DNA from: Marinospirillum sp.
GTDB taxonomy: Bacteria; Pseudomonadota; Gammaproteobacteria; Pseudomonadales; Halomonadaceae
Length of the DNA: 43,117 nucleotides
Direction of reading: 5' to 3'
Assembly: GCF_014859565.1 (NCBI RefSeq)
Contig: NZ_JACUUA010000010.1
Coordinates: 1 to 43,117, forward strand
Shown here: positions 25,078 through 30,340 of the stretch, piece by piece
Layout of the letters: each line of letters opens with the position of its first letter
Position numbering within the stretch: position 1 is the stretch's first letter
Notes under the pieces: generated by a model
Databases searched by the model: none
Seen by the model: the letters and a program-made list of their open reading frames with translations, nothing else
Told to the model about the DNA's origin: nothing
Position numbers and translations under genes: made by a program

Positions 25078-25154
25078 TTTGGCCGTCGATATTAAATAAA
25101 GATACTGCGCAGTTTAACCGACCAGCCGGATGGGGCAAAGGCTGAAGAGTGATT

Positions 25155-25619
25155 CATAACAACAAAAGGGGAAGGCCTGAGCCTTCCCCTTTGAATCGAT
25201 TGACACTGGCTGCATCCGTGCAGGAAATTAGGGAGATGTTTCTAGATCGCCCTGAATACGTATCACAGTCGCAAATTCTGCGTGAATTGCAGAGGCTGAC
25301 CGTCTCGTATTCAAAACAATTTAGCCTCAGCTTGGACCTTTTCTTTGGGTGTTTATTGTTGTTGTTCACCCTTGTGATGTACTCAGCATTGTTTTTATTT
25401 TTTGCTGATCACATCGGTTTTCGCTGAAGACCGGAGACCTTGGCTATTGTTTTTATTGTCGATGCCGCAACTGCTGAACCGTTTTTTGTATTTGTGGTGG
25501 ATTGCAGTGGTCTTTCACCTGGCTTCCTGTTGTTTTTGTTGTCGGAGGCCGGTTCGGTCAAGCTCAGTGTTTGTTTTTGTTATGCTGAGTCTGTGACGCC
25601 GGTGTTCTTATTTTTCTTG
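25155..25619 (-). ncRNA. crcZ: CrcZ-like Hfq/Crc-sequestering small RNA
   Basis: A predicted transcript of about 460 bases between cbrB and pcnB, the position of crcZ in Pseudomonas. A sigma-54 promoter sits upstream (25630-25645). The minus strand holds A-rich AAnAAnAA motifs at about 25606-25618, 25570-25581, 25529-25542, 25446-25459, 25389-25403 and 25352-25368, the type bound by the distal face of Hfq with Crc. It ends at a 12-base-pair hairpin with a T-rich tail. In Pseudomonas, CrcZ titrates Hfq/Crc and lifts catabolite repression. Plus-strand frames here (for example 25149-25427) are Leu/Phe-rich shadows of the A-rich repeats. Length is inferred, not measured. Confidence 0.85.
25156..25192 (-). 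terminator. intrinsic terminator of the CrcZ-like RNA
   Basis: AAAGGGGAAGGC (25165-25176) pairs with GCCTTCCCCTTT (25181-25192) over a four-base loop, a 12-base-pair perfect stem. Minus-strand transcription then runs into TTTTGTTGTT. It lies about 90 bases before pcnB. Confidence 0.9.
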
Positions 25620-25629
25620 GCTAGTAGTA

Positions 25630-25645
25630 TGCTTGTTGTGTGCCA
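25630..25645 (-). promoter_or_regulatory. sigma-54 promoter of the CrcZ-like RNA
   Basis: Minus strand TGGCACACAACAAGCA has the exact TGGCAC -24 element, the obligatory GG-N10-GC spacing, and AAGCA in place of the consensus TTGCA at -12. The start point would fall near 25619. Confidence 0.8.
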
Positions 25646-25718
25646 TGTTTCTGCATCTTATTTTAAATCAATTAGTTAGGTTAAAAATATGTTATTTTTG
25701 CAGTTTGCCTGAACCAGG

Positions 25719-25769
25719 TGTTACCCATAATTGGCCGGTTGAGGGTGGGATTTGGGTGTAACGGTAACA
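25719..25769 (-). promoter_or_regulatory. putative CbrB upstream activating sequence
   Basis: TGTTAC at 25719-25724 and GTAACA at 25764-25769 face each other about 75-125 bases upstream of the sigma-54 promoter. An extra TGTAAC lies at 25757-25762. CbrB sites in Pseudomonas are, from memory, TGTTAC-N14-GTAACA. Here the gap is 39 bases, so the half-sites fit but the spacing does not. Confidence 0.55.
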
Positions 25770-30169: not shown

Positions 30170-30340
30170 TTACAACTGCTCCAGGCGGCGTTTCTGCTCC
30201 AGCCATAGGGTGGCTCCGATCAGCGCGCCCCAGACCAGAAAAGGTTTATACCAGTCACTGCCACCCCAGGGCGTTAGAAACCAGGGCGAAAAGAAGTAAC
30301 CAACGGTGACCAGCAGTAGCACTAATCGATAGAGATACAT
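30170..30340 (-). CDS. cbrX: CbrX-like 56-residue membrane peptide
   Basis: A frame of 56 codons, starting MYLYRLVLLLVTVGYFF and ending EQKRRLEQL. It has two hydrophobic helices (about 4-22 and 33-46) joined by a polar WGGSDWYK loop and a positively charged C-terminus. Its ATG lies inside the last 19 bases of gluQ and its stop is four bases before cbrA, so it should be translationally coupled to cbrA. A similar small ORF, cbrX, occupies this place in Pseudomonas. Function is unknown; it may set CbrA levels by coupled translation or contact the CbrA membrane domain. Confidence 0.75.
   Translation of the reverse strand: MYLYRLVLLLVTVGYFFSPWFLTPWGGSDWYKPFLVWGALIGATLWLEQKRRLEQL

Follow-up and report, generated by a model that had tools for sequence, protein, structure and literature searches.

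CrcX of Pseudomonas and Azotobacter is a CbrB-driven sponge for Hfq/Crc, and the genes for CrcY and CrcX sit elsewhere in the genome than that for CrcZ. The available part of PMC6296734 describes CrcY as a CbrB-driven Hfq/Crc sponge as well, a feature that the RNA reported here would share, and gives the CbrB subsites of P. putida as F (TGTTAC) and R (GTAACA). According to the accessible text of a 2022 review (PMC8871633), the hosts of CbrAB are exclusively Pseudomonas and Azotobacter, and cbrA, cbrB and crcZ in the same order have been described only in these two genera. Among the papers listed by our search of the open-access literature, we recognised no report of CrcZ outside Pseudomonas/Azotobacter; PMC9049629 and PMC13086519 mention CrcZ and Halomonas, and the available portion of a marine metatranscriptome study (PMC5073097) reports cbrA and cbrB transcripts, with no host named for them.

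The 43,117-nucleotide stretch of DNA analysed here (the window) carries on its minus strand, in this order, gluQ, a 56-aa ORF, cbrA, cbrB, a 701-base gap and pcnB (Table 1), and the ORFs beyond pcnB are presumably folK, panB, panC and panD, as named from their sequences. Since no CbrA or CbrB equivalog was among the NCBIfam matches listed for the window, the names cbrA and cbrB rest on architecture and synteny. CbrX, for which the small ORF is a candidate, is the name used in the available text of PMC13022988 for the product upstream of cbrA. In the named collection, the CbrA proteins nearest to that of the window were from Marinospirillum (76–81%, full-length matches), Terasakiispira (64%) and Kistimonas (50%), all of which NCBI taxonomy places in Oceanospirillales and not in Pseudomonadaceae. 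Judged by these sequences, the host is a Marinospirillum-like bacterium, not a Pseudomonas, and therefore the original prediction that the range of CrcZ would widen if the host lay outside Pseudomonas applies. A plasmid search gave no match. The order cbrB-RNA-pcnB, laid out as in the window, was present in nine Marinospirillum/Terasakiispira loci, where the adjoining cbrB counterparts were 69–84% identical to that of the window. One of the nine comes from a record titled 'Pseudomonadaceae bacterium'; its CbrA is 77% identical to that of the window, its RNA is Marinospirillum-type and the title is probably wrong.

Table 1. Features of the region from cbrA to pcnB, with positions in the window
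Feature	Position	Strand	Basis or remark
Candidate cbrX, 56-aa ORF directly upstream of cbrA	30170..30340	-	position and size only
cbrA, transporter-sensor kinase, 986 aa	27205..30165	-	architecture, synteny
cbrB, sigma-54-dependent response regulator, 482 aa	25779..27227	-	architecture, synteny
CbrB-type box F, TGTTAC	25764..25769	-	124 bases upstream of -24 element; subsite sequence from available part of PMC6296734
CbrB-type box R, GTAACA	25719..25724	-	79 bases upstream of -24 element; subsite sequence from available part of PMC6296734
Sigma-54-like promoter TGGCACACAACAAGC, TGGCAC-N7-GC (GG-N10-GC)	25631..25645	-	same place in 9 Marinospirillum/Terasakiispira relatives
Predicted CrcZ-type RNA, ~460 nt	25159..25619	-	fold stability and covariation; 5' end placed by sigma-54 spacing
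AAnAAnAA cluster 1	25605..25618	-	motif scan
AAnAAnAA cluster 2, predicted hairpin loop	25571..25581	-	motif scan and fold
AAnAAnAA cluster 3, predicted hairpin loop	25530..25540	-	motif scan and fold
AAnAAnAA cluster 4, mean unpaired probability 0.76	25447..25457	-	motif scan and fold
AAnAAnAA cluster 5, predicted hairpin loop	25389..25402	-	motif scan and fold
AAnAAnAA cluster 6, predicted hairpin loop	25353..25366	-	motif scan and fold
Core helix 5' arm CTAAATTGTTTTGAATACG	25306..25324	-	helix of 18 pairs, basis of model R1
Core helix 3' arm CGTATTCAGGGCGATCTAG	25242..25260	-	helix of 18 pairs, basis of model R1
Intrinsic-terminator-like stem, 12 pairs	25165..25192	-	imperfect T tail TGTTGTT
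pcnB, poly(A) polymerase, 452 aa	23719..25077	-	TIGR01942 536.6 bits vs cut-off 305.65 (NCBIfam)

We consider it probable, at roughly 87%, that this gap holds the gene for a sponge RNA of the CrcZ type, which corresponds in position to crcZ of Pseudomonas and would titrate Hfq/Crc. The RNA sits between cbrB and pcnB, all on the same strand, and the original prediction was right about its coordinates and its minus-strand orientation. Its 5' end (25619) was set about 12 bases past the -12 GC, which we take to be the usual sigma-54 spacing. The sponge reading proposed earlier agrees with synteny, promoter geometry, unpaired motifs, a covarying fold and the Hfq, RpoN and Crc of relatives, all of them features read from sequence.

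The predicted TGGCAC GG-N10-GC promoter is present, though the sigma-54-like pattern by itself is at chance level (six in the window vs 3.6 expected; 16 of 100 shuffles reach six). Upstream of it lie two CbrB-type boxes that were absent from the earlier reading, and an F/R pair at such spacing is unique in the 43-kb window, with 0.04 expected. Relative to the -24 element, F lies at -123 to -126 and R at -78 to -81 in eight Marinospirillum-type relatives, and at -116 and -81 in Terasakiispira. Five loci scoring above 300 bits with the Rfam CrcZ model RF01675 (L014-L018), presumably Pseudomonas, carry F between -122 and -125 and R between -80 and -82, so that the boxes and sigma-54-like site of the window stand at Pseudomonas-like spacing.

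The claim of at least six A-rich AAnAAnAA motifs on the minus strand was borne out: the predicted transcript (25619–25159) holds six clusters, made of 15 overlapping matches, whereas its dinucleotide shuffles contain 1.5 ± 1.1 and 0 of 2000 reach six. The RNAs of the nine relatives have eight or nine clusters each vs 1.2–3.4 in shuffles, and the Pseudomonas-type loci L014-L018 have five or six by the same count. Several of the motifs of the window RNA are accessible in its predicted loops; over all ten sequences, 67 of 79 clusters have a mean unpaired probability above 0.8, the 5'-most cluster falling below that value in nine of the ten. The predicted minimum free energy of the window RNA is -137.3 kcal/mol (z -6.88), matched by 0 of 100 shuffles. 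On alignment A1, which comprises these ten sequences, the RNAalifold consensus has 85 pairs and 94.4% of cells pair; 24 pairs changed on both sides vs 10.0 ± 2.1 after shuffling (0 of 500), and a slid control gave 3 to 10, a comparison biased towards the structure because the structure was derived from that same alignment.

Covariation is silent on the core helix because 16 of its 18 pairs are invariant across the ten sequences. This helix is better conserved than the A-rich hairpins, and it is the part by which R1, a covariance model built on the Marinospirillum/Terasakiispira RNA core, matches 58 of the 61 genomes in the GTDB family to which these genera belong (six of them training genomes). 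Both observations would suit a structured, sigma-54-driven, Hfq-binding RNA that acts chiefly via its invariant core helix or by base-pairing, with Hfq/Crc titration being minor. Nevertheless, the A-rich motifs are maintained in number and stay unpaired though their stems vary, and a Crc with RNA-contact residues is present, which makes a chiefly core-driven function unlikely. The hairpin that caps the core helix (about 25305–25261 in the window) is without the A-rich loop seen in most relatives' counterpart. At a comparable place in Pseudomonas-type loci, a helix GCTAACTGATTCTTTTGGAG / CCAAAGCAATCCGTTTGC can be recognised, its likeness being judged by eye alone.

The 12-base-pair terminator of the original prediction was found as well (25192–25165), with an imperfect T tail. 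It is weak as lone evidence because the scan yields 1.2 sites per shuffle; in the alignment, 4 of 11 pairs of this stem (helix 13) changed on both sides. The imperfect tail, together with the position of the RNA directly upstream of pcnB, could suggest that the RNA belongs to the pcnB transcript, as a long 5' leader or an attenuator, and is not free. We regard such a leader as very unlikely, as conservation stops at the covarying terminator-like stem, some 90 bases short of pcnB, and three similar units in Kistimonas, each with boxes and promoter, sit away from pcnB. These units were found in Kistimonas asteriae (contig C22 of genome G009) within 10 kb, away from the cbrB-pcnB gap, with -24 elements at 1074, 8857 and 10354 of the examined stretch (L076). 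Each has F at -123/-124, R at -80/-81, TGGCAC-N6-TG[CT], A-rich motifs and a terminator-like end, and their RF01675 scores are 36.3, 33.4 and 22.2 bits. The Kistimonas cbrB-pcnB gap, laid out differently from that of the window, holds no such unit.

Four ORFs of at least 60 aa lie in the gap, in which the original prediction had seen no credible gene. That judgement held for the ORFs at 25149–25427 (plus strand) and 25154–25369 (minus strand), which gain stops in 6/9 and 8/9 relatives, and less clearly for two antisense ORFs (25402–25596 and 25440–25679), with extra stops in just 1/9 and 2/9. The latter, mostly stop-free in relatives, might be taken for a small protein encoded in the gap, on either strand, with the A-rich motifs as a by-product; stops would be rare there in any case, since A-rich loops read T-rich on the opposite strand. 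With the stops in the other two ORFs and the fold stability, covariation and promoter on the minus strand, a coding function is extremely improbable.

Potential partners of a sponge RNA are encoded by the relatives. Hfq and RpoN were found in all ten of their genomes, the one Hfq compared being near identical to that of P. aeruginosa, and Crc was found in the seven genomes searched, adjoining pyrE in six, with the RKRRE stretch present. The relative NExo is without RKRRE and has CGD where the seven Crc have CGT or CGS; the Asp of CGD is, we assume, the catalytic residue. The Crc of M. alkaliphilum is 49.6% identical to that of P. aeruginosa. At positions in RNA or Crc contacts, taken from the available part of PMC6422490, it retains R138, K139, R140, R141, E142, E193, R196 and R229 and differs by R230K, K155T and M156L. 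Among 25 Crc of the family, RKRRE is present in 21, KKRRE in one (L179) and RKRRQ in three (L187-L189). A Crc orthologue adjoining pyrE (L052:1471-2226, minus strand) passes the NCBIfam cut-offs for exodeoxyribonuclease III; it is thus likely to carry that enzyme's name in annotations, where Crc may go unseen.

That the RNA is transcribed under the control of CbrB, binds and titrates Hfq/Crc and has the corresponding physiological effect is inferred from Pseudomonas. By this analogy, exhaustion of the preferred carbon source would lead CbrA to activate CbrB, which would bind the F and R boxes and drive the sigma-54 promoter. The RNA of about 460 nt would then present six AAnAAnAA motifs in loops that conserved stems keep open; hexamers of Hfq, together with Crc, could bind these motifs and be pulled off the mRNAs of catabolic and uptake genes, and the freed mRNAs would be translated.

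Like Pseudomonas CrcZ (RF01675), the window RNA combines the cbrB-pcnB locus, the box/sigma-54 spacing, AAnAAnAA motifs in predicted loops and a terminator; unlike it, its sequence has diverged past the Rfam model and its core sequence is different. The covariance-model search suggested with the original prediction failed accordingly, as RF01675 gave two fragments of 11.2 and 9.6 bits vs a cut-off of 95, exceeded its cut-off in 0/10 relatives' genomes, and Rfam at gathering score had no match anywhere in the window. Matches of sbrA, ftsZ-DE, DapZ and STnc320 in the gap were weak, overlapped the terminator and were rejected. The window RNA, at the crcZ locus, is very probably of the CrcZ type though diverged, and the relay itself is already known. 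New are the presence of so strongly diverged an RNA in a genus beyond the range given in the available text of PMC8871633, evidence for a far wider range, and lineages, described below, that seem to have held on to the RNA when its regulator was lost.

At E 0.001, RF01675 matched 41/194 genomes of the order, nine of them above the cut-off, and 0/14 controls; weak matches (E up to 10) are uninformative because 9/14 control genomes match too. Four stretches of three genomes (G005, G010, G001) with weak RF01675 matches were without the combination of boxes and promoter and were discarded. Thirty RF01675-matched loci were examined, with pcnB in 29 and cbrB too in 25. R1, which works where Rfam is blind, matched 13/293 genomes of the order and 9/10 of the relatives' genomes, all nine being training genomes with one strong match each. 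A close sibling copy thus does not show in the nine matched genomes of the Marinospirillum group, as compared with the CrcY/CrcX siblings, and Kistimonas has its three dispersed units. Over 54 distinct pcnB-linked loci (60 rows less six duplicates), a sigma-54-like site was present in 53, both boxes in 46 and at least four motif clusters in 50, the motif counts being partly circular because loci were picked via CbrA, RF01675 or R1 matches; boxes and promoter sit upstream of both RNA models. The Halomonadaceae are salt-tolerant and of interest to biotechnology. Since GTDB assigns Marinospirillum and Terasakiispira to this family, according to the available part of PMC10690426, most of the 58 R1-matched genomes would be halomonads, and their conserved core helix is open to dissection.

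Fifty-six of the 58 R1 family loci were scorable, two (L132, L150) being dropped with no sigma-54 match. The RNA was adjoined by cbrB in 41/56, and all 41 had both F and R boxes. Among the 15 with cbrB not adjoining, gluQ adjoined the RNA in 13; these gluQ-RNA-pcnB loci had both boxes in 0/13 and retained the RNA core and a sigma-54-like site (doubtful and probably wrongly picked in L159). The remaining two (L145, L146), with neither gene adjoining, kept both boxes and were counted with the cbrB-positives below, their cbrB not being located. Full-length CbrA was found in 0/5 gluQ-adjoining genomes searched (5 of the 13), and Crc was kept in 13/13. Some lineages of the family appear to retain the RNA after regulator loss. 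The association of boxes with cbrB represents few events, not 13, because two changes are the minimum needed on the PcnB tree.

These cbrAB-less lineages offer a place to ask which other activator drives the sponge. A GCACCA element at -150 to -125, upstream of the sigma-54-like site, was present in 12/13 cbrB-less loci and 27/43 others. A takeover by NtrC, for which we assumed the consensus GCAC-N7-GTGC, was not adopted: perfect dyads occurred in just 2/13 cbrB-less loci, mismatch counts showed no clear difference between the groups, and genome-wide counts did not decide the matter. Joint loss of Crc and the RNA was likewise rejected, with Crc in 25/25 genomes examined, including three without an R1 match, which weighs against the sponge reading; of these three, G318 has a full-length CbrA (55%), and G313 and G314 have none. 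In another genome (G247), a cbrB-like neighbour and boxes are present, yet there is no full-length CbrA match. We put at about even odds a broader account in which the CbrAB–CrcZ–Hfq/Crc relay is ancient within the order and what endures is the RNA rather than its regulator: a halomonad lineage would have lost the cbrAB genes that separated gluQ from the RNA, the CbrB boxes would have decayed, and the RNA would have stayed under sigma-54 and another activator, perhaps one reading GCACCA.

In M. alkaliphilum, the surroundings of the start codons of 355 genes were scanned, over 400 kb out of roughly 3.1 Mb. The motif AAnAAnAA occurred at -30 to +10 in 25 genes vs 5–13 in six other 40-base bins. 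This enrichment is not relied on because other A-rich patterns rise too, all 15 A-rich permutations being enriched at starts, with AAnAAnAA first by a narrow margin. Uptake or catabolic Pfam domains, by our own sorting, were present in 13/20 motif genes (two crossing locus ends and three of contig C15 omitted) vs 5/20 random motif-free genes, all drawn from contig C13. On this contig, nine stretches (L091-L099) have AAnAAnAA just 5' of predicted starts, and the genes, which carry PaaA/PaaC, DctP, Peripla_BP_6, PrpF, citrate synthase and aldehyde dehydrogenase domains, are candidate Hfq/Crc targets.
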